From Paracoccaceae bacterium (GTDB taxonomy: Bacteria; Pseudomonadota; Alphaproteobacteria; Rhodobacterales; Rhodobacteraceae), in contig JAFMKS010000001.1 in the NCBI GenBank assembly GCA_017852835.1, forward strand, positions 62,001-126,000: DNA of 64,000 bases, read 5' to 3'. The notes under the pieces were generated by a model, which was not told the DNA's origin, searched no databases, and saw only the letters and a list, made by a program, of their open reading frames with translations. Of this stretch, positions 31,752 through 49,051 are shown piece by piece. Within the stretch, counting starts at the first letter, position 1; every line of letters begins with the position of its first letter. A program made the translations under genes and the position numbers.

Positions 31752-33233
31752 ATGGCAAAACAGCCAATGTTGAAATTTGTGAAAATCGATCGCGAGATGC
31801 CGCAAAAACGCGCTGCAGACGCGCGGAACAAAGATTTTAACGAAATCTATGCTGAGTTCGCAGCCGAAAAGGCAAAAGAACAAGCGAGTCGTTGTAGCCA
31901 ATGCGGCGTACCGTATTGCCAATCGCATTGCCCGTTGCACAACAACATCCCAGACTGGTTGCGCATGACGGCTGAGGGTCGTTTGCAAGAGGCCTATGAA
32001 ACCTCACAAATGACGAATACCTTTCCAGAGGTCTGCGGACGCATCTGCCCGCAAGACCGTTTGTGTGAAGGCAACTGTGTGATCGAACAATCGGGTCATG
32101 AGACTGTAACGATTGGGGCTGTTGAAAAATATATTACAGAGGCGGCTTGGGAAAATGGCTGGGTCAAATCAATCTCACCCGCTGCTGAATTGACGCAAAG
32201 CATTGGTATCATCGGCGCCGGTCCGGGTGGTATGGCCGCTGCGGACCGTTTGCGCCGCGCGGGCTACCAAGTAACGGTTTATGACCGTTATGATCGTATG
32301 GGCGGTTTGCTCACCTACGGTATTCCCTCCTTTAAGTTGGAAAAATACGTCATTGAACGCCGTACAAATCAGTTCGCGGAAGGCGGCATTGATATGCAGC
32401 TGAACACAAATGTTGGTGTGGACATCACATTCGAAGAATTGCGTGAAAAGCATGACGCCATCCTGATTGCGACAGGCGTTTATAAACTGCGCGAATTGGA
32501 CGACAGCACCTATGGCAATGACCTGACAGGGAATGTTCAGGCGCTGGGCTATCTAACTGCATCGAATAAGGCGAATTTTGGGGATGATGTGCCCGAACAC
32601 AATGATGGCACCCTGAATGCTGCGGGCAAACGCGTGGTTGTCATCGGCGGTGGTGACACGGCAATGGACTGCGCGCGTACTGCACTGCGTCAAGGGGCTG
32701 AAAAGGTAACTGTGATGTATCGCCGTGACCGTGAAAACATGCCGGGATCACAACGCGAAGTACAAAACGCCGAAGAAGAAGGCGCAGTGTTTGAATGGCT
32801 ATCTGCCCCATTGGGGTTTGTATCGGACAACAACGTCACTGATTTTGCAAACCCTGGCCAGCAATCTGGCAAGGTTAAAGGCGTTGTCGCGCAGCGTATG
32901 CGCCTTGGGGCGCCAGATGCCTCTGGTCGTCGCACACCCGAAGTGATGCAGGGCAGCGAATTTTTGATCGAGGCGGATATTGTTGTTAAAGCACTGGGTT
33001 TCACGCCAGAAGATTTGCCAACGCTTTGGGGTCAACCAGAATTACCCGTAAGCCGCTGGGGAACGATTAAGGCGGAGTATGGCACGGGTCGCACGGACCT
33101 TGAGGGTGTCTATGCCGTGGGTGATATTGTGCGCGGTGCCTCACTTGTTGTGTGGGCAATTCGCGATGGACGCGAGGCCGCAGATGCCATCATCGCGGAC
33201 CTAGAATCCAAACAAACGATCGCCGCTGAATAA
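31752..33233 (+). CDS. gltD: Glutamate synthase small (beta) subunit
   Basis: 493 residues. N-terminal cysteines for two 4Fe-4S clusters are in CSQCGVPYCQSHCP and CGRICPQDRLCEGNC (about 47-110). FAD site: IGIIGAGPGGMAAADRL (about 155); NADPH site: VVVIGGGDTAMDCARTA (about 295). It supplies electrons from NADPH to the large subunit. The start follows a strong AGGAGGC site. The 213-bp upstream gap holds a short hairpin (GTCCG-AAA-CGGAC at 31607-31619) and a candidate -10 near 31600. gltB follows after 92 bp, with a repeat element between. Confidence 0.96.
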   Translation: MAKQPMLKFVKIDREMPQKRAADARNKDFNEIYAEFAAEKAKEQASRCSQCGVPYCQSHCPLHNNIPDWLRMTAEGRLQEAYETSQMTNTFPEVCGRICPQDRLCEGNCVIEQSGHETVTIGAVEKYITEAAWENGWVKSISPAAELTQSIGIIGAGPGGMAAADRLRRAGYQVTVYDRYDRMGGLLTYGIPSFKLEKYVIERRTNQFAEGGIDMQLNTNVGVDITFEELREKHDAILIATGVYKLRELDDSTYGNDLTGNVQALGYLTASNKANFGDDVPEHNDGTLNAAGKRVVVIGGGDTAMDCARTALRQGAEKVTVMYRRDRENMPGSQREVQNAEEEGAVFEWLSAPLGFVSDNNVTDFANPGQQSGKVKGVVAQRMRLGAPDASGRRTPEVMQGSEFLIEADIVVKALGFTPEDLPTLWGQPELPVSRWGTIKAEYGTGRTDLEGVYAVGDIVRGASLVVWAIRDGREAADAIIADLESKQTIAAE

Positions 33234-33245
33234 CCATATGTTTCT

Positions 33246-33276
33246 CGTCGGTATCGCGTCGGTATGACGTCGGTGC
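33246..33276 (+). repeat. CGTCGGTAT repeat between gltD and gltB
   Basis: Three 9-base units with an 11-base period: CGTCGGTAT (33246), CGTCGGTAT (33257), CGTCGGTGC (33268), with linkers CG and GA. It starts 12 bp after the gltD stop and ends 49 bp before the gltB start. Nearly the same array follows serB (49021), and the same array is inside recQ (1092). No inverted symmetry, so a hairpin role is unlikely. Confidence 0.85.
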
Positions 33277-33325
33277 AAACGTTAAAAATTACCTAATAGG
33301 GTGCCTTGCACCTTGGGAGACTGAA

Positions 33326-36300
33326 ATGACAAAATTTGATAAAAACTGGGTCGCCGCAGAAGAAGCCAAGCGCCAATGGATGGCAGAAAACGGTCTGTAT
33401 CGCGAAGAGTATGAACACGCCTCTTGTGGGGTGGGTTTGGTTGTCTCAATCGATGGAAAGCCAAGCCGCAAGGTTGTTGAAAACGGGATCGCAGCGCTGA
33501 AGGCTGTTTGGCACCGTGGTGCTGTGGATGCGGACGGCAAAACAGGTGATGGCGCGGGTATCCACGTTCAGATCCCTGTTCCGTTTTTCTATGATCAGGT
33601 GCGTCGCACAGGTCACGAACCACGCAAGGGTGAATTGATTGCGGTTGGTCAGGTATTTTTGCCACGTACAGATTTCGGCGCCCAAGAGACATGCCGTACA
33701 ATCGTAGAAAGCGAAATTCTACGGATGGGTTATTTCATCTATGGTTGGCGCCATGTTCCTGTTGAGGTTGATTGCCTTGGCGACAAGGCGAACGCCACAC
33801 GTCCAGAGATTGAGCAAATTCTAATCTCAAACAGTAAGGGCGTGGATGAGGAAACATTCGAGCGCGAATTGTATGTAATCCGCCGCCGCATTGAAAAGGC
33901 TGCCGCGTCAGCAGGCATCAATGGTCTATACCTTGCGTCGCTGTCATGCCGTTCCATTATTTATAAGGGCATGATGTTGGCGGAACAGGTTGCTGTGTTC
34001 TATCCCGATCTGATGGACGAACGCTTTGAATCCGCGTTTGCATTGTATCACCAACGCTATTCAACAAACACATTCCCACAGTGGTGGTTGGCACAGCCGT
34101 TCCGCATGTTGGCACACAACGGTGAAATCAACACGCTGAAGGGCAACGTAAATTGGATGAAAAGCCATGAAATCCGCATGGCGTCCTCTGCGTTTGGCGA
34201 TATGGCTGAAGATATCAAACCAATCATTCCAGGTGGGTCATCTGACTCGGCTGCATTGGATGCGGTGTTTGAGGTTTTGGTGCGCGCAGGTCGTAATGCG
34301 CCAATGGCGAAAACCATGTTGGTTCCAGAAAGTTGGTCCAAACAAGCCAAGGACCTGCCACAAGCATGGCGTGATATGTATTCCTATTGCAACTCTGTGA
34401 TGGAACCATGGGATGGTCCTGCCGCACTTGCCATGACAGACGGGCGCTGGGTCTGTGCGGGTTTGGACCGCAATGGTCTGCGCCCACTGCGCTATGTCAT
34501 CACGGGTGACGGTCTACTGATCGCGGGGTCCGAAGTGGGCATGGTTCCTACGGATGAGGCGATTGTGCGCGAAAAAGGCGCGCTTGGCCCAGGTCAGTTG
34601 CTGGCGGTCGATATGGCCGAAGGCACATTGTACCACGACACCGAGATCAAAGATAAATTGGCCGCCGCCCAGCCATTTGGCGAGTGGGTTGGCAAAATCA
34701 AAGATCTTGATGAAGCGCTGGCACAAGTCACCGAAAAGCAACTGTTCAGTGGTGAAGAATTGCGCAAACGTCAAATCGCTGCTGGCTACAGCATTGAAGA
34801 GATTGAGCAAATCCTTGCCCCAATGGCAGAAGATGGCAAAGAAACATTGGCATCCATGGGGGATGACACGCCATCTGCGGTTCTGTCGAAAAAATACCGC
34901 CCGCTTAGCCATTATTTCCGTCAAAACTTCTCGCAGGTGACGAACCCACCGATTGACAGTTTGCGTGAATATCGCGTGATGTCGTTGAAAACACGTTTTG
35001 GTAACCTGAAAAACGTGTTGGACGAAAGCAGCGCGCAAACCGAAATCTTGGTTTTGGACAGCCCCTTTGTTGGCAACGCCCAATGGGACGTTCTGATGGA
35101 GAATTTCAACGCGGATATGGTGTCAATCGACTGTACCTTTGACCCAAGCGTTGGTGAAAATGCATTGCGTGACGCGCTTGAGCGTATTCGCAGCGAGGCC
35201 GAGGATGCAGTGCGTTCAGGTGCGGGCCACTTGGTCCTAACAGATATCGCATCGGGTGATGGCAAAACAGCAATGCCAATGATTTTGGCAACATCAGCTG
35301 TGCATTCGCATCTAACACGTCGTGGATTGCGCACATTCTGTTCATTGAACGTGCGTTCCGCGGAATGTATTGATCCGCATTACTTTGCTGTTTTGATCGG
35401 CTGTGGTGCAACCGTTGTGAACGCCTATCTGGCAGAAGACACATTGGCAGATCGCATTGATCGTGGATTGTTGAATGGCCCATTGACCGAAGCGATGAGC
35501 CGCTATCGCGAAGCGATTGACCAAGGTTTGCTGAAAATCATGGCGAAAATGGGCATCTCTGTCATTTCGTCCTATCGCGGTGGTTTGAACTTTGAAGCGG
35601 TTGGCCTTTCGCGTGCGATGTGTGCCGAATATTTCCCAGGGTTGATCAGCCGTATTTCAGGAATTGGTGTGTCAGGCATCCAAAAGAAATCCGTTGAAAT
35701 CCACAATGCGGGCTGGTTGGCTGATGGGATTTTGCCAATTGGCGGTTTCTATAAATCACGTAAAACTGGTGAAACCCATGCGTGGGAAGCACAGACAATG
35801 CACATGATGCAGGCGGCGTGTAACCGCGCGAGCTATGATCTGTGGAAACAATATAGTCAGCGTATGCAGGCCAATCCGCCCATTCATTTGCGCGATCTAT
35901 TGGCCATCAAACCCATCGGTGCACCCGTGCCGTTGGAAGAGGTGGAAAGCATCACCTCCATTCGCAAACGGTTCGTAACACCAGGTATGTCATTGGGTGC
36001 CTTGTCACCCGAGGCGCATAAAACCCTAAACGTTGCGATGAACCGCATTGGCGCGAAATCAGACAGTGGTGAGGGCGGAGAAGATCCCGCACACTTCCAC
36101 CCTGAACCAAACGGGGACAACCCATCGGCCAAAATTAAACAGGTTGCTTCTGGTCGTTTTGGTGTGACCGCGGAATACCTAAACCAGTGTGAAGAGCTTG
36201 AGATCAAGGTCGCACAGGGTGCAAAACCAGGTGAAGGTGGTCAGTTGCCCGGTATGAAGGTGACAGATCTGATCGCGCGTTTGCGTCATTCGACCAAGGG

Positions 36301-37861
36301 TGTGACATTGATTTCACCACCGCCACACCACGACATCTATTCGATCGAGGATTTGGCGCAGTTGATCTATGACCTCAAACAGATCAACCCGCGCTGTAAG
36401 GTGACGGTGAAATTGGTTGCGGCCTCTGGCGTTGGGACCATTGCCGCAGGTGTGGCCAAGGCCGAAGCAGACGTCATTTTGATTTCTGGTCACAACGGTG
36501 GCACGGGCGCATCACCTGCAACCTCGATCAAATTCGCAGGTTTGCCATGGGAAATGGGTTTGACAGAAGCGCACCAAGTGCTTGCCATGAACAACCTACG
36601 TGATCGCGTCACGTTGCGGACTGATGGTGGTCTGCGCACAGGTCGTGATATCGTCATGGCCGCAATGATGGGCGCTGAGGAATATGGTATCGGTACTGCC
36701 GCATTGATTGCGATGGGCTGTATCATGGTGCGTCAGTGTCAGTCGAACACATGCCCCGTAGGTGTGTGCACGCAAGACGAAGCCCTACGTGAAAAATTCA
36801 CTGGTAATGCGGATAAAGTTGTCAATCTGATCACTTTCTACGCGCAAGAGGTTCGTGAAATCTTGGCCTCAATCGGAGCGCGATCATTGGATGACGTTAT
36901 CGGTCGCGCGGATCTGTTGGGTCAGGTCAGCCGTGGTTCTGATCACTTGGATGATCTGGACTTGAACCCTCTGTTGATCAAGGTGGATGGATCTGACAGC
37001 ATTAACTATGATCGTGATCGCCCACGCAATGCGGTTCCCGATACATTGGATGCCGAAATCGTTCGGGATGCGGCTCGTTTCCTAAACGATGGTGAAAAGA
37101 TGCAGCTGTCTTATGCGGTGCAAAACACGCATCGTACGGTGGGCACACGCACCTCAAGCCATATTGTTCGCAACTTTGGCATGCGCAACAGCTTGCAATC
37201 AGATCACCTAACCGTGAAACTGACAGGCTCGGCTGGTCAGGCGCTTGGTGCTTTTGCGGCACCTGGTCTTAAGATCGAAGTGTCAGGTGATGCAAACGAC
37301 TATGTTGGTAAGGGTCTCTCTGGCGGTATCATCTCGGTTCGTCCACCGATGGTCAGCCCATTGGTCGCAGCGGAAAACACAATCATCGGAAACACGGTTC
37401 TATACGGTGCGACAGATGGTTATTTGTTTGCCGCAGGACGCGCAGGTGAACGTTTTGCCGTTCGTAACTCTGGTGCCAAAGTTGTCGTTGAAGGCTGTGG
37501 TTCAAACGGATGTGAATATATGACAGGCGGTATTGCGGTCATCTTGGGTACAATCGGTGCGAACTTTGGCGCGGGTATGACGGGCGGAATGGCCTATCTC
37601 TATGATCCTGAAGGTCTAGTGGACGACATGTTGAACATGGAGTCGCTGGTTACAGGACCCGTTGCTGTGCAGCATTGGGAGGATCAATTACTGGATCTGA
37701 TCCAACGCCATGTCGCAGAAACCAATTCAGCAAAAGGCGCGGAAATCCTGCGCAACTGGGATCTGGAAAAGGCGAATTTTGTTCAGGTCTGTCCAAAAGA
37801 GATGTTGGATAAAATTCCCCATCCATTGACCCTAGAACAGGATGCGGTTCCCGCAGAATAA
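33326..37861 (+). CDS. gltB: Glutamate synthase large (alpha) subunit
   Basis: 1511 residues. The catalytic Cys is residue 34 (HASCGVGLV), so a 33-residue propeptide must be removed. Class II amidotransferase domain first, then the central domain, an FMN-binding synthase domain (GHNGGTGASPATSIKFAG, about 1055) with the 3Fe-4S cysteines in CIMVRQCQSNTCPVGVC, and the beta-helix GXGXG domain at the end. It converts glutamine and 2-oxoglutarate to two glutamates. It forms the GOGAT operon with gltD. A strong terminator follows. Confidence 0.97.
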   Translation: MTKFDKNWVAAEEAKRQWMAENGLYREEYEHASCGVGLVVSIDGKPSRKVVENGIAALKAVWHRGAVDADGKTGDGAGIHVQIPVPFFYDQVRRTGHEPRKGELIAVGQVFLPRTDFGAQETCRTIVESEILRMGYFIYGWRHVPVEVDCLGDKANATRPEIEQILISNSKGVDEETFERELYVIRRRIEKAAASAGINGLYLASLSCRSIIYKGMMLAEQVAVFYPDLMDERFESAFALYHQRYSTNTFPQWWLAQPFRMLAHNGEINTLKGNVNWMKSHEIRMASSAFGDMAEDIKPIIPGGSSDSAALDAVFEVLVRAGRNAPMAKTMLVPESWSKQAKDLPQAWRDMYSYCNSVMEPWDGPAALAMTDGRWVCAGLDRNGLRPLRYVITGDGLLIAGSEVGMVPTDEAIVREKGALGPGQLLAVDMAEGTLYHDTEIKDKLAAAQPFGEWVGKIKDLDEALAQVTEKQLFSGEELRKRQIAAGYSIEEIEQILAPMAEDGKETLASMGDDTPSAVLSKKYRPLSHYFRQNFSQVTNPPIDSLREYRVMSLKTRFGNLKNVLDESSAQTEILVLDSPFVGNAQWDVLMENFNADMVSIDCTFDPSVGENALRDALERIRSEAEDAVRSGAGHLVLTDIASGDGKTAMPMILATSAVHSHLTRRGLRTFCSLNVRSAECIDPHYFAVLIGCGATVVNAYLAEDTLADRIDRGLLNGPLTEAMSRYREAIDQGLLKIMAKMGISVISSYRGGLNFEAVGLSRAMCAEYFPGLISRISGIGVSGIQKKSVEIHNAGWLADGILPIGGFYKSRKTGETHAWEAQTMHMMQAACNRASYDLWKQYSQRMQANPPIHLRDLLAIKPIGAPVPLEEVESITSIRKRFVTPGMSLGALSPEAHKTLNVAMNRIGAKSDSGEGGEDPAHFHPEPNGDNPSAKIKQVASGRFGVTAEYLNQCEELEIKVAQGAKPGEGGQLPGMKVTDLIARLRHSTKGVTLISPPPHHDIYSIEDLAQLIYDLKQINPRCKVTVKLVAASGVGTIAAGVAKAEADVILISGHNGGTGASPATSIKFAGLPWEMGLTEAHQVLAMNNLRDRVTLRTDGGLRTGRDIVMAAMMGAEEYGIGTAALIAMGCIMVRQCQSNTCPVGVCTQDEALREKFTGNADKVVNLITFYAQEVREILASIGARSLDDVIGRADLLGQVSRGSDHLDDLDLNPLLIKVDGSDSINYDRDRPRNAVPDTLDAEIVRDAARFLNDGEKMQLSYAVQNTHRTVGTRTSSHIVRNFGMRNSLQSDHLTVKLTGSAGQALGAFAAPGLKIEVSGDANDYVGKGLSGGIISVRPPMVSPLVAAENTIIGNTVLYGATDGYLFAAGRAGERFAVRNSGAKVVVEGCGSNGCEYMTGGIAVILGTIGANFGAGMTGGMAYLYDPEGLVDDMLNMESLVTGPVAVQHWEDQLLDLIQRHVAETNSAKGAEILRNWDLEKANFVQVCPKEMLDKIPHPLTLEQDAVPAE

Positions 37862-37867
37862 AACGAA

Positions 37868-37896
37868 AAACGGCCGCATCATGCGGCCGTTTCTTT
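37868..37896. terminator. Bidirectional rho-independent terminator behind gltB
   Basis: Arms ACGGCCGCAT (37870-37879) and ATGCGGCCGT (37881-37890) with flanking A- and T-runs on both sides (AAAAA before, TTTCTTTT after). It ends gltB on the plus strand and fits equally well as the end of a minus-strand transcript coming from 38.05 kb. Confidence 0.85.
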
Positions 37897-38059
37897 TGGG
37901 ACTAATGACTTTGAATATTTCGGGTCATGATGTTGTCCTTTCACTGCTGTATGCCATTCGTCATGAGATCGCGTAACTGGTTCCACCCGATCAGGGTGGC
38001 CGTGGACCGGGGTTAACAAAACCAACGCTTGGTTTCACATTCTTGGGCGGAAAATTATA
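37868..38059 (-). ncRNA. Candidate small RNA or leader with two tiny ORFs
   Basis: On the minus strand a perfect -10 (TATAAT, 38059-38054, -35 weak) leads into a structured stretch: hairpin AAACCAA-GCG-TTGGTTT (38035-38019) and hairpin CCACCC-TGATC-GGGTGG (37999-37983). Then come two in-frame tiny ORFs: MTNGIQQ (37964-37941) and MTRNIQSH (37928-37902), the second with AAAGGA 7 nt before its ATG. The terminator (37890-37870) follows at once. A ~180-nt transcript is predicted. It has no gene downstream to control, because gltB is on the other strand. Unrecognised; no family assigned. Confidence 0.35.
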
Positions 38060-38177
38060 ATAATTGGTAATTTTGATGCTACTATACTATCCACTTATCG
38101 GTGAATTTTTAATAACCTCTACCCTTGGTTCATGTTGCTGAACGCGGTAAGCTGTCCAAAAAACGGAAATTTGAGGC

Positions 38178-38900
38178 ATGGCAAAAAAGGCGATTAAACG
38201 CGCACCACAGAAAAAGTCAAAAACAGGCTCTAATAAACCGAATTGGCGTAAAATCTTGCGCTGGATCGGTATTGGCGGTTTGGCCTGTTCTATCGCGGTT
38301 TTCATCGTTTTCCGCTTTGTCCCCATTCCAACAACCCCCTACATCCTGTCGGAAAAATCCCGACTTGGGTCTGTGTATTCTGAATGGATGCCGATTGAGG
38401 AAATTTCAGACACGCTAAAGGTGACTATTGTTGCGGCTGAAGATGTGAATTTCTGCCAACATTGGGGCTTTGACATGTCCGCCATTCGCGCTGCGATTCA
38501 GGATGGCGGGGCTCGCGGGGCATCGACCCTGACACAGCAGGTCGTGAAAAATACCTTCCTGTGGCACGGGCGCAGTTGGATGCGCAAAACGCTTGAGGCC
38601 TTTTTGACGCCTGTGGTGGAATTGTTCTGGTCCAAAGAACGGATATTAGAAGTCTATCTGAATGTCGCAGAATTTGACGAAGGCGTTTTTGGCGCCGAGG
38701 CCGCGTCTCTGCATTATTTCGGCATCTCCTCAGATAGCCTGACCTTGGCCGAGGCTGCGCGCCTTGCTGCGATTTTGCCAGATCCCAAGGGACGCTCTGC
38801 ATCTGCGCCAACGCAATTCGTGTTGGATCGTGCAGACAATATTCAAGATGGTGCGGTACTGATCCAAAAGGATCAAAGATCACACTGTTTCATGGATTGA
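38178..38900 (+). CDS. mtgA: Monofunctional biosynthetic peptidoglycan transglycosylase
   Basis: 240 residues. A basic N-terminus and a membrane segment (about 28-50) are followed by a glycosyltransferase 51 domain: catalytic glutamate in VAAEDVNFCQHWGFD (about 95), GASTLTQQVVKNTF, and YLNVAEFDEGVFGAEAAS. It polymerises lipid II into glycan strands on the periplasmic face. An unusual C-terminal tail (about 205-240) has no clear match. It has its own upstream region after the gltB terminator. Confidence 0.93.
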   Translation: MAKKAIKRAPQKKSKTGSNKPNWRKILRWIGIGGLACSIAVFIVFRFVPIPTTPYILSEKSRLGSVYSEWMPIEEISDTLKVTIVAAEDVNFCQHWGFDMSAIRAAIQDGGARGASTLTQQVVKNTFLWHGRSWMRKTLEAFLTPVVELFWSKERILEVYLNVAEFDEGVFGAEAASLHYFGISSDSLTLAEAARLAAILPDPKGRSASAPTQFVLDRADNIQDGAVLIQKDQRSHCFMD

Positions 38901-38958
38901 TCCCTGCGTCAGAATTATGCCATTTATACACTGATTTTGATTTGAAAGTTGCCCCACG

Positions 38959-39624
38959 ATGTTGCGCCTTTATCATGTTCCATTGTCCCCTTTCTGCCGC
39001 AAGGTTCGGTTAGTATTGGCCGAAAAAAAGATGGATGTTGAACTGATTGAGGAACGTTATTGGGAACAATCAACGGAATTTTTGCGTCGCAACCCCGCAG
39101 GGAAGGTCCCTATCCTGCGGCACCAAGGGGCGCTTTTGACCGAAAGCACGCCTATCTGCGAGTATATAGAAGAGTTAAACCCAGAACCCTCATTAATTCC
39201 CAACGACGCCGAGGCGCGGTATGAAATGCGCCGATTGGTGTCATGGTTTGATGATAAATTTCATCACGAGGTGACCTCAAACCTACTTTATGAACGGGTG
39301 AACAAAAAGGTATCGGGACAGGGGTTTCCCGATAGCAAAAATATCAAAGAGGGTGCGCGCAAAATCAAATACCATTTGGATTATATGGCCTGGTTGTTAG
39401 AACATCGTCGTTGGTTGGCGGGCGATACAATGACATTGGCCGATTTTGCGGCCGCTGCGCATTTGTCCAGTTTGGATTATATTTCAGATGTGGATTGGAA
39501 CCGATCATCTGTTGTAAAAGATTGGTATGCAAAAATTAAATCGCGCCCTGCGTTTCGCAATATTTTGTCGGATCAGGTGTCTGGGTTCCCACCGCCCCGC
39601 CATTACAATGATTTGGATTTCTGA
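38959..39624 (+). CDS. Glutathione S-transferase family protein
   Basis: 221 residues. N-terminal thioredoxin-like domain LYHVPLSPFCRKVRLVL with a serine/cysteine in the usual place of the active residue, then the conserved NPAGKVPIL and ESTPICEYIEE (about 45-70). A helical C-terminal domain ends with the unusual tail PPPRHYNDLDF. The substrate is unknown. It lies 26 bp upstream of queG and is likely co-transcribed. Confidence 0.88.
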   Translation: MLRLYHVPLSPFCRKVRLVLAEKKMDVELIEERYWEQSTEFLRRNPAGKVPILRHQGALLTESTPICEYIEELNPEPSLIPNDAEARYEMRRLVSWFDDKFHHEVTSNLLYERVNKKVSGQGFPDSKNIKEGARKIKYHLDYMAWLLEHRRWLAGDTMTLADFAAAAHLSSLDYISDVDWNRSSVVKDWYAKIKSRPAFRNILSDQVSGFPPPRHYNDLDF

Positions 39625-39650
39625 TGCCTGCATGGGTTTAGGGGGTCACC

Positions 39651-40688
39651 GTGTCCCTTAAACAGGCGATCATTGATCAGGCGCAGGCTGAGGGATTTTC
39701 GCTCTGCCGTTTTACCCAGCCAGACAGCATTCCGCATGTCCCGGACAAGCTCTCGGATTTCATCGACGCGGGGTATCACGGACAAATGTCATGGATGGCA
39801 GATCGCCAAACATGGCGGGCCAATCCGCGTGAGCTTTGGCCCGATGCGCAAACAATTATCATGCTGGGCGAAAGTTACGCACCAGATCATGATCCCACGG
39901 ACATCCTGAAGCATCCCGAAAAAGGGGCCATATCCGTTTATGCACAAAACAAGGACTATCATGACCTTGTTAAAAAACGCCTGAAACGATTGGCGCGCTG
40001 GTTGATTGCGCATTCAGGTGGCGAGGTGAAAGTGTTTGTCGATACGGCCCCTGTTTCGGAAAAGCCGTTGGGACAGGCCGCAGGTTTGGGGTGGCAGGGC
40101 AAACATACGAATTTGGTCAGCCGCGATTTGGGAAACTGGTTCTTTATTGGGTCTGTCTTTACCACCTTATCTATTGAACCTGACGGGGCAGAGGTGGATC
40201 ATTGCGGATCCTGTCGATCTTGCATCACAGCCTGTCCAACAGACGCCTTTCCCGCACCATATCAATTGGATGCGCGTCGCTGCATTTCCTATTTGACTAT
40301 CGAGCATTCAGGTCCCATTGACGTGGATTTGCGGGGGTTGATGGGCAACCGAATTTACGGATGCGATGATTGTTTGGCCGCCTGTCCGTGGAATAAATTC
40401 GCCAAAGAGGCAAGCGATATCCGCTATCACGCGCGTGCAGATTTGATGGCCCCAGATCTTGGCGAATTGGCGATGTTGGATGATGCTGCATTTCGCGCGA
40501 AATTTTCGGGCAGCCCTATCAAACGCGTTGGTCGCAATCGGTTTGTGCGTAATGTCCTTTATGCGATTGGCAATTCACAGCGGCCCGATTTGCTTCCCGT
40601 TGCCCAAGGTTTGATCGACGATTCTGATCCCACCGTTTCTGATGCTGCCAGATGGGCGGTTCAGCGATTGTCGCAAATGGGGCGCTGA
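39651..40688 (+). CDS. queG: Epoxyqueuosine reductase QueG
   Basis: 345 residues. Two 4Fe-4S motifs: [16 protein letters not shown] (about 182-200) and [17 protein letters not shown] (about 240). The N-terminal cobalamin-binding part and a C-terminal HEAT-like end are family features. It reduces epoxyqueuosine to queuosine in tRNA. The start is GTG at 39651; there is no ATG in a fitting position. Confidence 0.93.
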
Positions 40689-40754
40689 ATATGCCGCAAA
40701 TAGACAGACGTTTTTAGTTCGCCGCGCTATCTCAGCGGAAATGAAGGAGCAGGC

Positions 40755-42755
40755 ATGACATACCTATTGGGCATAGATACGGGTGGCACATATACCGATG
40801 CGGTGATCCTGCGCGACGAAGAGGAAGTAATCGCCTCGGCAAAGTCGTTGACGACCCGCCATGATCTGGCCGAAGGCATTGGCAAGGCTGCGGCCGCAAC
40901 CCTTCAGTCTGCTGGCATCGATGCAAGTGACATTGCGATGGCCTCGCTCTCAACCACTTTGGCGACAAATGCCTTGGTCGAGGGGCAGGGGGGCCGCGTT
41001 GGCCTGATCTTTATCGGGTTTCGCGAGGGCGATTTGGACAAGCATGGCCTGACCCAAGCATTGGCGGGTGATCCTGTTTTGTCGATTGCAGGGGGCCACA
41101 ACCACGCAGGGGGCGAAGCGGTCCCGCTTGATCTAGCTGCGATTGCGGAATGGGTTGAACAACAAAGAGGTATTTCGGCCTTTGCAGTTGCATCGCAATT
41201 CGCAACACGCAACCCCGCCCACGAATTGGCGGTTTTGAAGTTACTGCGCGAAAAAACGGGTAAACCCGTTAGCCTATCACATCAACTATCGGCCAAATTG
41301 AACGGTCCGCGGCGTGCGCTGACCGCCCTATTGAATGCACGTTTGATCGGATTGATTGATCGTCTGTTGCAGCGCGCGCAGTCTGTGCTCTCTGATCTAG
41401 GTGTGAACGCGCCATTGATGGTGGTGCGTGGCGATGGTGCGTTGATATCACTGGATCAGGCGCGCGAAAAACCAATTGAAACAATCCTTAGCGGCCCTGC
41501 GGCCTCAATCGTTGGGGCGCGGTGGTTGACCAATTCCGACAATGCATTGGTTTCTGATATTGGCGGAACCACCACTGACATTGCCGTTTTGCGCGATGGC
41601 TTGCCCGCCATTGATCCCGAAGGTGCCAAGGTGGGTCCATACCGCACCATGGTCGAGGCCGTTGCCATGCGCACCTTTGGTCTGGGTGGGGATAGTGAGG
41701 TGCATTTTGTCTCGCACGGTTTGCAGGGCGGTGTCACATTGGGCCCACGCCGAGTGTTGCCCGTATCTCTTGCTGCAATGATTGACCCCGACATCGTTCA
41801 TGCTGCCTTGGACGCCCAGTTGCGCGGCACGCTGCCTGGGGATTATGATGCTCGTTTTGTACGCCGCATTGATGTTTTTGAAGCGGGGGGATTAAGCGCA
41901 CGCGATGAAGGGGTTTATAACCGCATAACCGCGGAGTTTCAGCCGATCAGCGATGTGTTAAAAACCCGGATCGAGGCACAGGCACTGATGCGCTTGGTGT
42001 CGCGCGGATTGGTCCAGATTTCTGCACTAACCCCATCTGATGCGTCGCACGCATTGGGGCGAGTTGATGTATGGGATACTGATGCTGCGATTAAAGCACT
42101 GTCGCTGTTTATGCGGCGCAGAACGGGGTCGGGTGAATTATTGTCGGATGATCCAAATCACATGGCACAGATTGTGATTGATCAGTTGACGCATCAAACC
42201 TGTTTGGCCGTTTTGGAAACCGCATTTGCCGAGGATGCGTTTGATTTTGAAATGGCCCCTGATGACTTGGCCAAACATATTATGACAACGCGTGGGTTGG
42301 TGGGGCACCGCGGATTGTTACGCATTGATTTGGGGATTGATGTGCCCGTTGTGGGGCTTGGCGCCTCGGCGCCCAGTTATTATCCAGCGGTCGGTGAAAA
42401 ATTGGGATGCCCGATGGTGTTATCGGAACATGCAGGTGTCGCCAATGCAATTGGTGCGGTTGTCGGCCGTGTTACATTTCGCAAATCAGCCACGATAACC
42501 AGTCCGTCTGAGGGGCTTTATCGGGTGCATTATGGGGATCACCCCCATGATTTTGCCGAAAGCGATGCTGCCTTATCTTTTATTAAGGATGCGCTCTATG
42601 CAGCTGCGCTATCAGATGCGCAGGATGCAGGTGCCGAACAAATAGAAGTGGTGTTGGATCAAGACATCAAAATGGCCGAAATCGAAAGCCGTCAAGTTTT
42701 TGTCGAGGCATTGGTCACTGCCACCGCAAAGGGTCGTCCGCGCGTTGCGCATTAG
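40755..42755 (+). CDS. Hydantoinase/oxoprolinase A family ATPase
   Basis: 666 residues. The actin-like ATPase fold of HyuA proteins is shown by LLGIDTGGTYTDAVI (4-18), LATNALVEGQGGRVGLI, SGPAASIVGA and SDIGGTTTDIAVLRDG (about 265-280). HyuA enzymes hydrolyse hydantoins, 5-oxoproline or carboxylate ketones with ATP, normally with a HyuB partner subunit. No HyuB gene is next to it, so the substrate is open. ATG follows AAGGAG. Confidence 0.82.
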   Translation: MTYLLGIDTGGTYTDAVILRDEEEVIASAKSLTTRHDLAEGIGKAAAATLQSAGIDASDIAMASLSTTLATNALVEGQGGRVGLIFIGFREGDLDKHGLTQALAGDPVLSIAGGHNHAGGEAVPLDLAAIAEWVEQQRGISAFAVASQFATRNPAHELAVLKLLREKTGKPVSLSHQLSAKLNGPRRALTALLNARLIGLIDRLLQRAQSVLSDLGVNAPLMVVRGDGALISLDQAREKPIETILSGPAASIVGARWLTNSDNALVSDIGGTTTDIAVLRDGLPAIDPEGAKVGPYRTMVEAVAMRTFGLGGDSEVHFVSHGLQGGVTLGPRRVLPVSLAAMIDPDIVHAALDAQLRGTLPGDYDARFVRRIDVFEAGGLSARDEGVYNRITAEFQPISDVLKTRIEAQALMRLVSRGLVQISALTPSDASHALGRVDVWDTDAAIKALSLFMRRRTGSGELLSDDPNHMAQIVIDQLTHQTCLAVLETAFAEDAFDFEMAPDDLAKHIMTTRGLVGHRGLLRIDLGIDVPVVGLGASAPSYYPAVGEKLGCPMVLSEHAGVANAIGAVVGRVTFRKSATITSPSEGLYRVHYGDHPHDFAESDAALSFIKDALYAAALSDAQDAGAEQIEVVLDQDIKMAEIESRQVFVEALVTATAKGRPRVAH

Positions 42756-42801
42756 CCTGACCTGGCGCAGTTCTTGCAACTGTTGGCCACAGAAGGCTGA
42801 T

Positions 42802-43011
42802 ATGGAAAATACCGCACGTCTGTTTATTATTGTGATTGGTTTTTGCTTTTTGATCGCATTTGTTGTCTGGATTTTCGTTGCCTCTTCCAAAACCCGCGTT
42901 GTTTTGGAAAACACAGAAGAGGCGGTACGCGTCTGCGGTGAAGGCAATGTTGCCTGGGTGCGATTTGTGAAAATAAAGTATGCGATATGCCATTATCTAT
43001 TGCACTGCTGA
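42802..43011 (+). CDS. Hypothetical small membrane protein
   Basis: 69 residues from the ATG at 42802, which follows AGAAGG. One hydrophobic segment (about 7-28, FIIVIGFCFLIAFVVWIFV) and a short soluble tail rich in cysteine. The frame is open further upstream inside the HyuA gene end, but the ribosome site favours this start. No family recognised; coding is uncertain. Confidence 0.4.
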   Translation: MENTARLFIIVIGFCFLIAFVVWIFVASSKTRVVLENTEEAVRVCGEGNVAWVRFVKIKYAICHYLLHC

Positions 43012-43111
43012 ATGAATGCGGTGTCAAATGGAGCCAAACAAACGGCCAAGTGGGTTTTCATACGCAATTTGGACCGCATAAGATTGGGACAAAGTGCCCT
43101 GAGGTATCAGT

Positions 43112-44008
43112 ATGACGGCAGTCGGTTTGGATTTAGGCGGGTCCAAGATTGAGGCGCAAATTTTTGACGCGGATTGGGCGTTAACGGATAAGCGCCGTGT
43201 TGATACGCCGCAGAACTATCATGCGCTATTGAATGCGATTGGGGATCTGGTTGCATGGTCCAAAGCAGATCAGCCCAATGTTCCGATTGGAATTGGCGCC
43301 GCAGGGGTGCTGTCGGCGGATGGGCGCGCGCTGACTGCGAATTTACCAGCAACAAATTACAAGATTGTGCATGATATTCGCGCACAAATTGATGGCGGCA
43401 TAGTCTATGTAAACGATGGGCGTGCATTTGCCCTGTCTGAGGCTGTGTTTGGTGCGGGACGCGGGCATGATATGACGCTTGGCTTAATCCTTGGAACAGG
43501 TGTTGGCGCGGGGATGACATGGCGTGGTGAACTGGTTGGAGAGCCGCATTCAATTGCTGGCGAAATAGGACATGTCGCAGCCCCACTGTCGGTATGCAGA
43601 GACCTGCCAGTCATTGAATGTGGGTGTGGCCGCTCCGCCTGTTATGAGGCCTATGCCTCGGGTCCGGGACTGTCGCGATTGGCGCTGCACTATTCGGGTG
43701 AAACGCTGTCGCCTATGGACATTGCCGATCAAAAATCGAAAAGCCCATCGGTACAGATGGCGTGGGAAAAATGGTGCGAAATCGTTTCTGAAATGATCAT
43801 CACCTCGTCATTTCACATTGCCCCTGACGTTGTTGTTTTGGGGGGCGGTTTATCAAAGATTGCTGGTGTCATTGATGATCTGGCGATTGCCGTTGATAAA
43901 CGCGCGTTGGCGAATGTGAAGCGTCCCAAAATCGTTTTGGCCGAAGCTGGAGATGCCAGTGGTGCGCGCGGTGCGGCCTATGCCGCCTATTTGAAAGGTC
44001 AAGTTTGA
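43112..44008 (+). CDS. ROK family kinase, probable N-acetylglucosamine kinase
   Basis: 298 residues. The ROK ATP motif is VGLDLGGSKIEAQIF (4-18). ROK zinc cysteines are in CGCGRSACYEAYASG (about 169), with SIAGEIGHV before it. It abuts nagA, whose ATG overlaps this gene's TGA (TGATG). That context points to N-acetylglucosamine 6-phosphate production for NagA; glucose or N-acetylmannosamine are alternative substrates. Confidence 0.87.
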   Translation: MTAVGLDLGGSKIEAQIFDADWALTDKRRVDTPQNYHALLNAIGDLVAWSKADQPNVPIGIGAAGVLSADGRALTANLPATNYKIVHDIRAQIDGGIVYVNDGRAFALSEAVFGAGRGHDMTLGLILGTGVGAGMTWRGELVGEPHSIAGEIGHVAAPLSVCRDLPVIECGCGRSACYEAYASGPGLSRLALHYSGETLSPMDIADQKSKSPSVQMAWEKWCEIVSEMIITSSFHIAPDVVVLGGGLSKIAGVIDDLAIAVDKRALANVKRPKIVLAEAGDASGARGAAYAAYLKGQV

Positions 44009-45162
44009 TGACAACAGGCACATACATACTCCCAACCGCAATCTATGTGGAAAAGGCGTTGGATAGGTCACATGCTGTCCATGTTATGGATGATCGTGCG
44101 CATTTGGTTCAGCGCGACACTGTGCCTAGTGATGGACGGGTGATTAAGATTGACGGTATTGTTGCACCTGGGTTTCTGGACCTGCAGGTGAACGGTGGCG
44201 GCGGCGTCCTGTTCAATGATGATCCATCGCCACAGGCGATTGACCATATCCGTGATACACATGCCCGATACGGAACGATTGGGATTCTGCCAACCGTGAT
44301 TACGGACGCGCCAGATGTCATAGATCGGGCGGCGGACGCCGTCATTGCACATGGTCAAACGGATCATGTCTTGGGCATTCATATTGAGGGACCACATATT
44401 TCGCAGGGACGTAGGGGCACGCATTCAGCGGAATTAATACGGCCCTTTGATGAACGTACCTTTGCAACATTGTGTCGTTTGCGCGATGCAAATATCAGTA
44501 CGAAATTAACGCTTGCCCCCGAGGTGGTGGATCCTGAAACTGTTCATCGCATTGCAAAATTGGGTGTTATTGTTTCAATCGGACATACAGTTGCCAGCAA
44601 TGCGCAAACATGGGCAGCAATTGATGCGGGCGCCAGTTGCGCGACACATTTGATGAACGCGATGCCGCCGTTGATCAATCGTGATCCTGGCCCTGTTGTT
44701 GCGATTATGAATGCAGGTCTTGCCTGTGGTATCATCTGCGACGGTATCCATGTTCAGGACGAAATGTTCAAACTTGCGCTTCGAGCACATGCGCGACCCG
44801 AGCGGATGTTTTTGGTTTCAGATTCAATGCCAACGATTGGCGGGCCAGACCAATTTGACCTGTATGATATGACCGTTCGTTTGACAGAGGGCCAATTGAT
44901 CAACTCAGAGGGATCCTTGGCTGGTGCGCATATCACCCAAGCTCAGGGGGTTGCACGACTGGTTCGTGCCATTGGTTTGGACGTTGCGGATGCGTTGCAT
45001 ATGGCAATTGATGCACCAGCAAATCTGATCGGACGATCCGATTTGGCAAACGTAGATGGCCGTGCGCCTGGCGATTTGGTGTTGTTGTCGAATTGCGCGC
45101 AGCACACAACGATGTTGCATGCTATCCTTGAAAAAGAATGGGCCGGCGAACCGGCCCAGTAA
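44008..45162 (+). CDS. nagA: N-acetylglucosamine-6-phosphate deacetylase
   Basis: 384 residues from the ATG at 44008. Family features: PGFLDLQVNGGGGVLFN near the start, GIHIEGPHISQGRRG (about 120), SIGHTVASNAQ (His for the metal), HLMNAMPP and catalytic Asp in VSDSMPTIGG (about 270). It deacetylates GlcNAc-6-P for cell-wall amino-sugar recycling. Reading starts at an earlier TTG at 44005, but the TGATG overlap with the kinase stop is better. The 3' end encloses the serA terminator. Confidence 0.94.
   Translation: MTTGTYILPTAIYVEKALDRSHAVHVMDDRAHLVQRDTVPSDGRVIKIDGIVAPGFLDLQVNGGGGVLFNDDPSPQAIDHIRDTHARYGTIGILPTVITDAPDVIDRAADAVIAHGQTDHVLGIHIEGPHISQGRRGTHSAELIRPFDERTFATLCRLRDANISTKLTLAPEVVDPETVHRIAKLGVIVSIGHTVASNAQTWAAIDAGASCATHLMNAMPPLINRDPGPVVAIMNAGLACGIICDGIHVQDEMFKLALRAHARPERMFLVSDSMPTIGGPDQFDLYDMTVRLTEGQLINSEGSLAGAHITQAQGVARLVRAIGLDVADALHMAIDAPANLIGRSDLANVDGRAPGDLVLLSNCAQHTTMLHAILEKEWAGEPAQ
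45131..45158 (-). terminator. serA terminator embedded in the nagA 3' end
   Basis: Minus strand: arms TGGGCCGG (45158-45151) and CCGGCCCA (45146-45139) around TTCG, followed by TTCTTTTT. It starts 9 bp beyond the serA stop. On the plus strand the same bases are codons for the last residues of NagA (EWAGEPAQ), and the T-run is absent, so termination is one-sided. Confidence 0.75.
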
Positions 45163-45167
45163 TTCAA

Positions 45168-46763
45168 TTATGCAACGTCGAATTGCAGTGGTTTCACTTG
45201 TTTAAACAAACCTGTCGCTTCCAGGTCCTTTAGGACATTGGCTTGGATAGGTTCGTCCACATATAGCAGCGCAATCGCTTCCCCACCTGCATCTGCGCGG
45301 CCAAGAGTAAAGTTGGCGATGTTCACACCGTTTTGACCCAACGTTTGACCCAATGTACCAATAATGCCTGGGACGTCTTCGTTCGTTGTATAAAGCATGT
45401 TTGCGCCGACTTCGGCGTCGATATTAATGCCTTTGATCTGAATGAAACGTGGCTTTCCATCACTGAACACTGTGCCGCCGATCGAACGTTCGCGTTCTGC
45501 TGTGACGACTGTGACCTTGATATAACCCGCAAATACACCTGATTTATCTTGGTTCGTGGTGCTGATCTTAATACCACGTTCCTTGGCGATCACAGGTGCG
45601 GACACCATGTTCACATCTGGATTGGCCTTTTTCATGATACCCGCAACAACAGAACAATTCAGGGCATCCAAATTCATTTCGGCAACGGAACCGTCATATA
45701 GAATGTTGATTGCTGTGATCGGCTCATCCGTCATTTGGCCCACGAAGTTGCCCAAGTGATCCGCCAATTTAACCCACGGACCCATGATTTTGGCCTCTTC
45801 CGCGGTCATGGATGGCATGTTCAGCGCGTTTTCAACGGCCCCTGACAACAGATAGTTTGACATCTGATCTGCGACTTGCAGTGCCACGTTTTCTTGTGCC
45901 TCGGTCGTTGCAGCGCCCAAATGTGGTGTGCAGACAACATTTGGCAGATTGAACAATGGGTTTTCCGTTGCAGGTTCAACCGAAAATACGTCAAACGCAG
46001 CACCTGCAACATGCCCAGATTGCAGCAACTCAGCCAGTGCAACTTCGTCAACCAAACCGCCGCGCGCACAGTTGATGATGCGAACGCCCTTTTTGGTTTT
46101 GGCCAAATTCTCACGGCTTAGAATGTTCTTGGTGCTTTCTGTGAATGGAACATGCAGCGTGATGAAATCAGCAGCTGCCAGCAATTCGTCCAGCTCTACT
46201 TTTTGAACGCCCATCTGCTTGGCCTTTTCTTCACCAAGGAAGGGATCAAAGGCCATGACCTTCATCTTTAGGCCGCGTGCACGGTCGCAAACGATCCCAC
46301 CAATGTTCCCTGCGCCAATCACGCCAAGCGTTTTGCCCGTCAGTTCAACACCCATGAATTTGGATTTTTCCCACTTTCCCGCATGCGTGGATTCAGAGGC
46401 CTCGGGAATTTGGCGCGCGACTGCAAACATCATTGCAATGGCATGCTCGGCCGTCGTGATCATATTACCAAAGGGGGTGTTCATGACGATGACACCCTGT
46501 TTTGACGCGGCCTCTTTATCGACATTGTCCGTTCCAATGCCCGCACGGCCAACCACCTTTAGATTGGTGGCATGTTTCAAAATTGTGGGTGTCACCTTGG
46601 TTGCGGACCGGATGGCAAGACCATCATATTGTCCGATGACCTCGGCCAGTTTTTCTTTGTCTTTGCCCAGATCAGGCATGAAATCCACGTCGATCCCGCG
46701 ATCCCGAAAGATTTGGACAGCTGTTTCGCTTAGTTTGTCAGATACAAGTACTTTAGGTGCCAT
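45168..46763 (-). CDS. serA: D-3-phosphoglycerate dehydrogenase
   Basis: 531 residues, the long type. Catalytic and NAD domains first (GVIGAGNIGGIVCDRARGL, about 146; INCARGGLVDEVAL with catalytic Arg; HLGAATTEAQ with catalytic His, about 290), then the allosteric substrate-binding domain and a C-terminal ACT domain (GIIGTLGQTLGQNGVNIANF, about 470). It commits 3-phosphoglycerate to serine synthesis; ACT domains allow serine feedback. The ATG at 46763 is preferred to one four codons upstream. serC lies 75 bp upstream. Confidence 0.96.
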   Translation of the reverse strand: MAPKVLVSDKLSETAVQIFRDRGIDVDFMPDLGKDKEKLAEVIGQYDGLAIRSATKVTPTILKHATNLKVVGRAGIGTDNVDKEAASKQGVIVMNTPFGNMITTAEHAIAMMFAVARQIPEASESTHAGKWEKSKFMGVELTGKTLGVIGAGNIGGIVCDRARGLKMKVMAFDPFLGEEKAKQMGVQKVELDELLAAADFITLHVPFTESTKNILSRENLAKTKKGVRIINCARGGLVDEVALAELLQSGHVAGAAFDVFSVEPATENPLFNLPNVVCTPHLGAATTEAQENVALQVADQMSNYLLSGAVENALNMPSMTAEEAKIMGPWVKLADHLGNFVGQMTDEPITAINILYDGSVAEMNLDALNCSVVAGIMKKANPDVNMVSAPVIAKERGIKISTTNQDKSGVFAGYIKVTVVTAERERSIGGTVFSDGKPRFIQIKGINIDAEVGANMLYTTNEDVPGIIGTLGQTLGQNGVNIANFTLGRADAGGEAIALLYVDEPIQANVLKDLEATGLFKQVKPLQFDVA

Positions 46764-46838
46764 GATTATTCTCATTCTATGGAATTGGTATACGCACCCC
46801 CTTTTTGAGGATGCTGATTATTCAATTTTGTCAGTAAG

Positions 46839-47981
46839 TTACAGCGCTGCGATTTCTTGCTCGAAGGCCCATTCTAACCATGGAAGCATCGCAACGATGT
46901 CCGATGTTTCGACTGTGCCACCGCACCACACACGCAATCCCGCAGGGGCATCACGATAGGCGCCGATGTCATAGGCTACGTTTTCGGTCTCCAACCGTTT
47001 GGCAACCGCTTTGGCGAATTTTGCGCCGTCCTGAATGCGATCATCTGTAAACTTCAGACACACAGAGGTATTTGAACGTGTGGCGGGATCGATCGCCAAA
47101 TTGTCAATCCAATCACGTGTTTCGCAGAAATCCCAAATTGCCTGAGCATTGGCCGTTGCACGCGCGATCAAGCCGTTTAGCCCACCAACATTCGCGGCCC
47201 AATCCAATGCTGCGATGTAATCCTCAACCGCCAACATGGATGGCGTATTAATTGTTTCGCCAACGAAAATACCTTCGATCAGCTTGCCACCTTTGGTCAG
47301 GCGGAAGATTTTAGGCAGTGGCCAAGCGGGGGTATATGTCTCTAATCGTTCGACCGCACGTGGTGACAGGATCAACATACCATGCGCCGCTTCACCACCT
47401 AGCACCTTTTGCCAGCTGAATGTGGTGACATCCAATTTGTCCCATGGCAGATCCATTGCGAAGGCTGCAGATGTGGCATCACAAATGGTTAGCCCCTGAC
47501 GATCTGCGGGGATCGCATCCCCATTGGGCATGCGCACGCCAGATGTGGTGCCGTTCCATGTGAATACAATGTCCGTGTTGTAATCGACCGCGGCCATATC
47601 GACGATTTCGCCGTATTCGGCGGTGCGTACATCTGCATCAAGTTTCAGTTGTTTGACAACATCTGTGACCCAGCCTGCGCCAAAGCTTTCCCAGGCGACC
47701 ATAGTCACAGGGCGCGCGCCCAACATGGACCACATCGCCATTTCAACCGCGCCAGTATCAGACGCAGGAACAATACCAATGCGAAAGTCGGCGGGGATGT
47801 TCAGAATCTCTCGTGTTTTTTCGATTGCTTCTTTGAGCTTGGCCTTGCCCACAGCCGCACGATGCGAGCGGCCTAATGGGGCATCTGCCAATTTATCCAA
47901 AGAAAACGTGGGGATTTTGGTACATGGACCAGAAGAAAAACGCGCGTTCAACGGCCGCGCAGCCGGTATATTCATAGCCAT
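46839..47981 (-). CDS. serC: Phosphoserine aminotransferase
   Basis: 380 residues of the long alphaproteobacterial kind, starting [23 protein letters not shown] lysine is in [16 protein letters not shown] (about 195). It transaminates 3-phosphohydroxypyruvate with glutamate. The start ATG at 47981 follows GAAAGGG; a TTG three bases earlier is not needed. Upstream lies a short leader with a C-rich hairpin. With serA and serB the whole pathway is present. Confidence 0.94.
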
Positions 47982-48005
47982 CAATGCTACCCTTTCAGAT
48001 ATGCG

Positions 48006-48023
48006 CCCCTCGTTGGGGAGGGG
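48006..48023 (-). promoter_or_regulatory. Hairpin in the serC leader
   Basis: Arms CCCCTC and GAGGGG around a 6-base loop (minus strand CCCAAC), 24 bp before the serC start, just before the ribosome site. It lies in the position of the known alphaproteobacterial serC RNA motif; I cannot check the full consensus by eye. Confidence 0.4.
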
Positions 48024-48139
48024 TGTCCCACGAACCGAAATAGAGAGAGAAAGCTGGTTTCACAAGCACAAAAAGGTCTATATAGCGACATTCAAGAATA
48101 ATTTTGCGACGCATATGTCCCTTATAGGAAACAGAAATC

Positions 48140-49018
48140 ATGTATCAGGTCACGCTTATCGGTGCGCCAAACCAAGAACGATTGAATATGACGGTGTTGG
48201 ATTCCTTGCGCCATGCGTGGGGCGGGGGCGATGCGGTTTGGTTGTCGCATGCAGAGGCCGCAGAGTTTCCTATTGAAACTGTCCCGAGCAATCAGTGGCA
48301 GGTGTGGCAAGAGTTTCAAAACATGGGCATCGATATGGTTGTCCAACCTGCATCTAAGCGGCGCAAAAAGATGTTATTGGCCGATATGGACAGCACCATG
48401 ATCCAACAGGAATGTATCGATGAATTGGCCGATGAAGTTGGAGTTGGGGATCGTGTAAAAGAGATCACAGCGCGGGCCATGAATGGTGAATTAGATTTTG
48501 AAGCAGCGCTGGATGAGCGCGTTGCGCTGTTGGCGGATCAGCCAGCGGATATCATTGATAAGGTTCTGAAAGAACGCATAAAATTTATGCCCGGTGGGCG
48601 TACATTGATTGTGACCATGAAGGCAGATGGGGCCTATGCCGCATTGGTGTCCGGGGGGTTCACAGCCTTTACAAACAAGGTTGCAGAGACCCTTGGATTT
48701 GATGAGCATCATGCCAATACACTCTTGGTGGATGGGGATAAATTAAGCGGTAAAGTCGCGCGCCCCATATTAGGTAGAGAGGCCAAAGTAGAGCAGTTGG
48801 AAAAGATTACTGCCGAACTGGGATTATCAGAGAATGATGTGATCGCCGTTGGGGATGGTGCCAATGATTTGGGCATGTTGGGGCGTGCGGGAACAGGTGT
48901 GGCACTGCATGCAAAACCCGCAGTTCAGGCGGAATGCGACGTGCGTGTGAACCACGGCGATTTGACCGCCCTGTTGTTTTTGCAAGGCTATTCTAGAGAC
49001 GAATTTTGCGGTCTGTAA
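48140..49018 (+). CDS. serB: Phosphoserine phosphatase
   Basis: 292 residues. An N-terminal ~75-residue region without a clear ACT signature is followed by the HAD core: nucleophile motif LLADMDSTMIQQECIDELA (about 79-97), VSGGFTAF (motif II), and VIAVGDGANDLGML (about 241). It dephosphorylates phosphoserine to serine. Divergent from serC with 158 bp between them, so the intergenic region may be shared for regulation. A repeat array follows two bases after the stop. Confidence 0.95.
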   Translation: MYQVTLIGAPNQERLNMTVLDSLRHAWGGGDAVWLSHAEAAEFPIETVPSNQWQVWQEFQNMGIDMVVQPASKRRKKMLLADMDSTMIQQECIDELADEVGVGDRVKEITARAMNGELDFEAALDERVALLADQPADIIDKVLKERIKFMPGGRTLIVTMKADGAYAALVSGGFTAFTNKVAETLGFDEHHANTLLVDGDKLSGKVARPILGREAKVEQLEKITAELGLSENDVIAVGDGANDLGMLGRAGTGVALHAKPAVQAECDVRVNHGDLTALLFLQGYSRDEFCGL

Positions 49019-49020
49019 AA

Positions 49021-49051
49021 CGTCGGTATCGTGTCGGTATTACGTCGGTGC
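49021..49051 (+). repeat. CGTCGGTAT repeat behind serB
   Basis: Three units with an 11-base period: CGTCGGTAT (49021), TGTCGGTAT (49032), CGTCGGTGC (49043), with linkers CG and TA. It matches the gltD-gltB copy at 27 of 31 positions or better, including the distinct last unit ending GC. Located 3 bp after the serB stop; no hairpin symmetry. Confidence 0.85.

Follow-up and report, generated by a model that had tools for sequence, protein, structure and literature searches.

Strand-biased chromosomal sequences are known mainly as 8-mers, among them the FtsK-orienting polar sequences (KOPS), whose polarity switches at dif in Paracoccus and Sinorhizobium replicons (PMC13342612), and the architecture-imparting sequences (AIMS); most of the proteins that read such sequences are reported to be unknown (PMC5993296). 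Polar assembly on longer sites is described for BldC, which assembles head to tail on direct repeats that vary in number, and the same source names response regulators as a further class (PMC5859096). We analyzed a stretch of 64,000 nucleotides (the window) from a Paracoccaceae bacterium, bases 62001-126000 of contig 72 (JAFMKS010000001.1) of a 2.36-Mb draft genome that is 82.5% complete (GCA_017852835.1), in which an original prediction had noticed an 11-base unit, CGTCGGTAT-NN, recurring as short arrays at three distant sites. We find that these arrays are genuine, occur genome-wide and form an old feature within part of the Rhodobacterales, with polarity in several genera. The best supported reading, to which we give a probability of about 0.55, is that they form a polar chromosomal mark that works like KOPS yet is distinct from KOPS; a mark of this kind best explains why the arrays are one-turn direct repeats, follow GC skew, avoid promoters and have no match on plasmids.

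Using the pattern CGTCGGTAT-NN-CGTCGGTAT with up to three mismatches, we observe seven matches in the window, all on the plus strand and at three sites (1092-1122, 33246-33276 and 49010-49051), against a mean of 0.05 and a maximum of 1 in 100 shuffles, which confirms the three same-strand arrays first noticed. Across the draft genome, CGTCGGTAT-NN-CGTCGGT with up to two mismatches gave 32 matches at about 17 places and its reversed control 2, and many copies are likewise present in other Rhodobacterales genomes. For example, we found CGTCGGTATNNCGTCGGTGC (one mismatch) in 24 of 295 genomes of the family and GTCGGTATNNNGTCGGT (exact) in 43 of 390 Rhodobacterales genomes, 21 of them with 8-265 matches and 22 with 1-4; such pattern counts overlook variants (two genomes discussed below, G295 and G408, end their arrays differently), and absence here means absence of these patterns. 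In these genome-wide counts the arrays are neither limited to three copies, nor unconserved, nor at chance frequency. Presence is near all-or-none within groups and patchy over the Rhodobacterales, many relatives lacking arrays: each of the four genomes from the window's genus carries matches, all eight sampled genomes of group g210 hold 19-147 matches, and among the eleven sampled in group g278 three hold 29, 67 and 88, seven hold none and one holds a single match. Among the matches listed (80 of at least 114 stretches), 77 of 80 named records are Rhodobacterales or labelled Alphaproteobacteria; the other three (L116, L154, L158), named outside the Alphaproteobacteria, are probably chance and were kept in the counts of context, placement and polarity given below. 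A plasmid partition array was rejected, as 72,556 plasmid records, whatever share of them comes from array-bearing species, held no array match with a query that recovers 242 of 486 array loci at that database size. Phages gave only three weak Vibrio matches (E 0.7), and one match on a viral contig looks chromosomal from its neighbors, which read as carB-like, LuxI/LuxR-like and acyl-CoA dehydrogenase-like in translation. We also observed that 15 of the roughly 17 places in the draft genome lie on the plus strand of their contigs, though random contig orientation was expected, and that the reversed control pattern occurs 17 times in the array-less genome G067, perhaps as an unrelated repeat family.

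The strand of the arrays follows local GC skew, which we used as a proxy for replication direction in place of a located origin or dif. Agreement was seen at 42 of 46 arrays in G408 (sampled as 40 stretches of 20 kb on a 3.58-Mb contig), 39 of 45 in G269 and 93 of 105 at named loci of 8 kb, and two further sets gave 20 of 23 and 22 of 25; these sets overlap slightly, some G408 sites standing in two of them, and polarity in G408 was taken from the sampled stretches only, since its list of places (100 of 182 matches) seemed uneven between strands. Composition alone predicts about 65 agreements at the 105 named loci (P 1e-9). In the G408 stretch at 2.60 Mb, skew and array strand are both reversed, and at loci of 3 kb agreement was 29 of 30 in G269 and 37 of 50 in other genera. 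The three arrays of the window sit in 8-kb bins of positive skew (+0.090, +0.090 and +0.049). The strand of neighboring genes shows no relation to that of the array (agreement in 21 of 45 in G269, 27 of 46 in G408, 53 of 105 at named loci, and 10 of 23 and 9 of 25 in the further sets), so that the proximity to plus-strand genes remarked on at the outset is true of the window and does not carry over to other genera.

The arrays are also spread along chromosomes. Genome G269 holds 75 on one 3.60-Mb contig (97 of 102 two-mismatch matches listed, those beyond 3.06 Mb incompletely), where gap variation taken linearly is 0.66 against 0.98 at random and none of 20,000 simulations was as low; two gaps are below 10 kb against 14 expected, and 14 are below 20 kb against 25 expected (P 0.00025). 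In Pseudooceanicola spongiae (G295), with 66 arrays in 0-2.6 Mb, gap variation is 0.78 (P 0.02), with 4 gaps below 10 kb against 14 expected.

A set of 183 distinct contexts gave the core tGTCtGTATCG, CGTCGGTATYR, CGTCGGTATYR, CGTCGGTGC, the last two units being fixed by the search pattern itself, and a general unit of 11 bases, CGTCGGTAT-YR. Arrays have 2-5 units, four being commonest (100 of 183); the 3' unit is the most constant and units further upstream decay, and the dinucleotide ahead of the last unit is pyrimidine-purine in 161 of 183. Weak A-rich patches about 10 bp apart lie upstream (-29, -39, -50), and many arrays outside the window's genus stand in a wider frame, with GAATC at about -65, GTTAAC at about -52 and about +42, and, farther out, sequence rich in G+C. 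Over 800 kb of G269 and 800 kb of G408, GTCGGTAT is followed by another GTCGGT at a spacing of 11, 22 or 33 bp in 93 of 98 and 24 of 24 cases, respectively; isolated units occur 24 and 23 times, where composition predicts 23 and 17. This fixed helical register, together with the little excess of single units, favors a protein acting on double-stranded DNA, and the strict register, the near-chance single units and the avoidance of divergent gaps described below suggest that the arrays are double-stranded sites for such a protein. A DNA uptake sequence, which needs a single short word in very many copies, was rejected given the near-chance number of single units, as was an RNA element, since 20 array loci gave four Rfam matches, none at the array, and the transcribed strand is not preferred. 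Lineage variants were noted at the array ends: G408 arrays often finish in CGACAGT(G), and those of G295 finish in units like CCGGGCGGTG or have GAACGGTA next.

In the window, where genes were called with a simple custom script rather than a standard gene finder, the arrays and their neighbors are as follows.

725-2761, plus strand: recQ, an open reading frame of 678 amino acids that matches RecQ among solved structures (E 3e-147) and contains array 1.
1092-1122, plus strand: array 1, three perfect CGTCGGTAT units with linkers TA and CG, within recQ (pattern match).
To about 1133, plus strand: weaker fourth unit of array 1, ATATCGGTGG (the two-mismatch match reaches 1131).
31752-33233, plus strand: gltD-like open reading frame 5' of array 2, named by reading its translation.
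33246-33276, plus strand: array 2, CGTCGGTAT-CG-CGTCGGTAT-GA-CGTCGGTGC, in the gltD-gltB gap (pattern match); genome G176 (L035) has the same site.
33326-37861, plus strand: gltB-like open reading frame starting 49 bp past array 2, named by reading its translation.
48140-49018, plus strand: serB-like open reading frame ending just 5' of array 3, named by reading its translation.
49010-49020, plus strand: degenerate unit GGTCTGTAAAA at the head of array 3, sharing bases with the serB stop codon (pattern match).
49021-49051, plus strand: array 3, CGTCGGTAT-CG-TGTCGGTAT-TA-CGTCGGTGC, past serB (pattern match).

Both intergenic arrays indeed close with the variant unit CGTCGGTGC and keep the CG linker between units 1 and 2, and the core is a direct repeat with no dyad symmetry, unlike a palindrome of the repetitive extragenic palindrome (REP) type, as the original prediction had it. 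A serC leader RNA (Rfam RF00517, 69 bits) lies at 47982-48033 on the minus strand, just upstream of the serB-like frame and on the opposite strand to it.

Our analysis of shared sites demonstrated that positions are conserved between genomes. Among array-adjacent genes of the named loci with a homologue in G269, 29 of 44 are array-adjacent there too, compared with 11 of 74 other genes (P 2e-8), homologues being taken at 50% identity or more in the sampled quarter of G269, with 180 and 484 genes lacking one, and some of the named loci may belong to G269's own genus. Side and orientation are kept in 17 of 18 chosen pairs, a hisG site being the exception; a hisG site is common to the window's genus and G269, and a serC-serA site to G151 and G269, each pair being labelled as different genera. 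The array in recQ is present in all four genomes of the window's genus, with 27, 27, 27 and 26 of 27 fixed bases. A further 24 recQ genes from Rhodobacteraceae match at 5-15 bases and keep an identical codon count at that position, where solved RecQ is likewise ungapped; the array was therefore built by in-frame substitution, not by insertion. In purL, the segment that contains the array is 87 amino acids long in G217 and 86 in G269, and in 27 array-free genes it measures 84 (17 genes), 85 (1), 86 (8) or 87 (1).

These histories bear on the main rival explanation, in which the arrays are the cores of a small mobile repeat of about 120-150 bp moved by a strand-preferring transposase, perhaps with target immunity spacing the copies. 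Transposases that are coupled to the lagging strand or act on single strands do prefer one replication strand. A frame of about 120 bp recurs in the g278 genomes, presence among genomes is patchy, and in G269, 18 of 19 listed copies run on into a hairpin such as CGGATTTCGACACGAAATCCG, behind which come a second stem and a GAGGATATTTTTGGGCC-like stretch. At acpS-lepB, where 25 of 30 loci could be cut out, the four segments with an array or decayed array measure 316-1009 bp and 17 of the 21 array-free segments 188-268 bp; the other four array-free segments are also long (345-892 bp), and neither terminal inverted repeats nor target duplications were seen there by eye, without a systematic search. 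A mobile repeat also fits poorly with a recQ array that involved no insertion or deletion, a purL array likewise accommodated within 0-3 amino acids, shared sites that hold place and orientation, plasmids without a match and phages with weak matches only, and the ordinary-looking genes read between close array pairs of G269. Taken together, we consider it unlikely: the mobile micro-repeat first offered as an option is weakened by recQ and purL and kept alive by acpS-lepB. A transposon flanked by arrays at both ends was rejected because the genes read within two close G269 pairs, one of them apart from its middle, look ordinary. The G269 hairpins and the GAGGATATTTTTGGGCC-like stretch fall at about +60 to +150 from the array (L062, L064, L065, L073 and others), the second stem varying in sequence while keeping its pairing by eye; also by eye, in L310 and L314 the array-bearing segment overlaps the end of acpS, supplies its stop codon and alters its last residues.

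The placement of the arrays relative to genes bears on a second alternative, namely that they are operators of a large regulon under a direct-repeat-binding transcription factor of the OmpR/PhoB kind, perhaps together with CtrA, many arrays being flanked by the CtrA half-site TTAAC. Direct repeats of 11 bp are typical of OmpR/PhoB-like regulators, the flanks show an excess of TTAAC and GAATC at set positions, and array 2 sits 49 bp ahead of gltB. Of the 183 sites, 43 lie between genes both running with the array and 56 between genes both running against it; convergent gaps account for 35 and divergent gaps for 13, 17 are within genes and 19 are unresolved. The repeat period is that of such regulators and the location is not that of promoters: at named loci only 7 of 88 intergenic sites are in divergent gaps, which make up 32% of intergenic positions, and 20 of 88 are in convergent gaps, against 10%. 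With no gene-strand bias (43 with, 56 against) and 17 of 183 arrays inside genes, we regard a regulon as highly unlikely. A SciP motif of the form (T/C)GTCG(G/A) would resemble the unit. The motif given in the literature is GCGAC/GCGNC (PMC4287350). A SciP, CtrA or CcrM site was rejected on the promoter test, and the TTAAC and GAATC that flank many arrays keep it as a lead. Core genes recur as neighbors (hisG, gltD, serC-serA and purL, named by reading). In one G408 locus (L298, C2:1040000-1054000), two arrays at 6215 and 6297, 82 bp apart, lie 5' of a frame resembling, on reading, a gene transfer agent large terminase.

Alternatively, FtsK itself might read the arrays as a novel type of KOPS, in view of their KOPS-like polarity with GC skew and the 105 of 157 arrays that share the majority direction of the KOPS GGGNAGGG at their locus. 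Each of 32 genomes (18 array-bearing, 14 array-less) has a single FtsK-gamma. Across the 30 compared (17 positive, 13 negative), the recognition segment of this domain is nearly identical, two array-less genomes differing by one residue. FtsK is therefore unlikely as the reader, and no second FtsK with its own gamma domain was present in the 32 genomes. Moreover, GGGNAGGG is strongly polar in array-bearing G408 (88:4 in positive-skew and 14:101 in negative-skew stretches); it is weakly polar in G269 (29:21 and 17:36) and agrees with local skew at 133 of 189 copies at named loci, with the window's genus giving 11 of 14 and the 3-kb loci of G269 giving 5 of 14. An array read by FtsK thus seems very improbable, and canonical KOPS were rejected because CGTCGGTAT differs from GGGNAGGG, which occurs beside the arrays. 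A Chi-like recombination hotspot read on single strands would share the bias with GC skew and can scarcely be right, as the fixed helical register and the lack of a clear single-unit excess do not fit a short word read on one strand, and agreement with skew among isolated units is 34 of 47, lower than for arrays.

Several observations weigh against a polar chromosome mark. The weakest point is the window's own genus, in which polarity does not recur at the scale accessible here (19 of 34 arrays at 3-kb loci agree with skew), so that the strand bias sought by the original prediction is seen in other genera and not in this one. No strand blocks emerge from runs tests along G269 and G295, and dividing G269 into two arms yields a bias that is modest (48 of 75; 20/6 and 21/28; P 0.007), which leaves the link to replication resting on local skew. 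Gap variation in G269 becomes 0.78 (P 0.013) once the gap spanning the contig ends is counted, and G408 holds array pairs less than 100 bp apart, indicating that close pairs are rare, not forbidden. Patchiness, even within genera, would not be expected of a core chromosome function. In the window's genus, the recQ array shows variation at 1 of 14 codons, compared with 224 of 664 elsewhere, a weakly significant difference (P 0.026), with 29 of 665 windows of codons equally conserved. At acpS-lepB, the array was either gained or lost along with additional DNA, the site resembling a DNA gain. Finally, no reader of the arrays was found.

On balance, the many copies, the preference for the positive-skew strand in other genera and the conserved shared sites favor two of the options first listed, a protein-binding array and a chromosome-level motif. 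We suggest that each array would be a double-stranded site on which a protein may assemble head to tail over about three to four copies of the unit, with one 11-bp unit per helical turn and a constant 3' unit giving the array its polarity. Spread with few close neighbors, off promoters and on the leading-type strand in several genera, the arrays would point from origin to terminus and most likely serve to load or to orient a factor that acts in segregation or condensation of the chromosome or in fork-linked DNA processing. It is possible, and we offer it tentatively, that they constitute a polar chromosome address system, with spacing of tens of kilobases, alignment to replication, a reader other than FtsK that is gained and lost with the sites, and a recQ array built by selection. 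As long and unmistakable polar sites, the arrays can be counted, deleted and used as bait, and since some species have them and close relatives do not, this natural contrast makes the reader and the role of the mark directly testable. Our literature searches on the unit and the arrays returned no report of them, judging by titles and listings.

Compared with described systems, the arrays share with KOPS and AIMS a strand that tracks local GC skew and a scatter over the chromosome, and differ in being direct repeats of 33-44 bp, where KOPS are 8-mers, at tens to about 100 sites; unlike KOPS they are lineage-restricted, with FtsK-gamma alike in genomes with and without them. BldC of Streptomyces, Xis-like proteins and response regulators offer the same combination of variable direct repeats, one DNA face and polar assembly, although their sites are promoters or recombination sites. 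The parC/ParR and StbA arrays of plasmids are direct repeats with a period of about 11 bp, found once per plasmid beside par or stb genes; the period is shared, and here there are many chromosomal copies by core genes and no plasmid match. The matS, Noc and SlmA sites are palindromes, present in tens chromosome-wide for an organizing protein, and the present arrays resemble them in number and reach while being polar direct repeats. Like REP elements, bacterial interspersed mosaic elements and other interspersed repeats, the arrays are mostly intergenic and enriched in convergent gaps, and in G269 they are joined to hairpins; they are set apart by a core without a dyad, a strict 11-bp register, agreement with GC skew and, in recQ, in-frame substitution.

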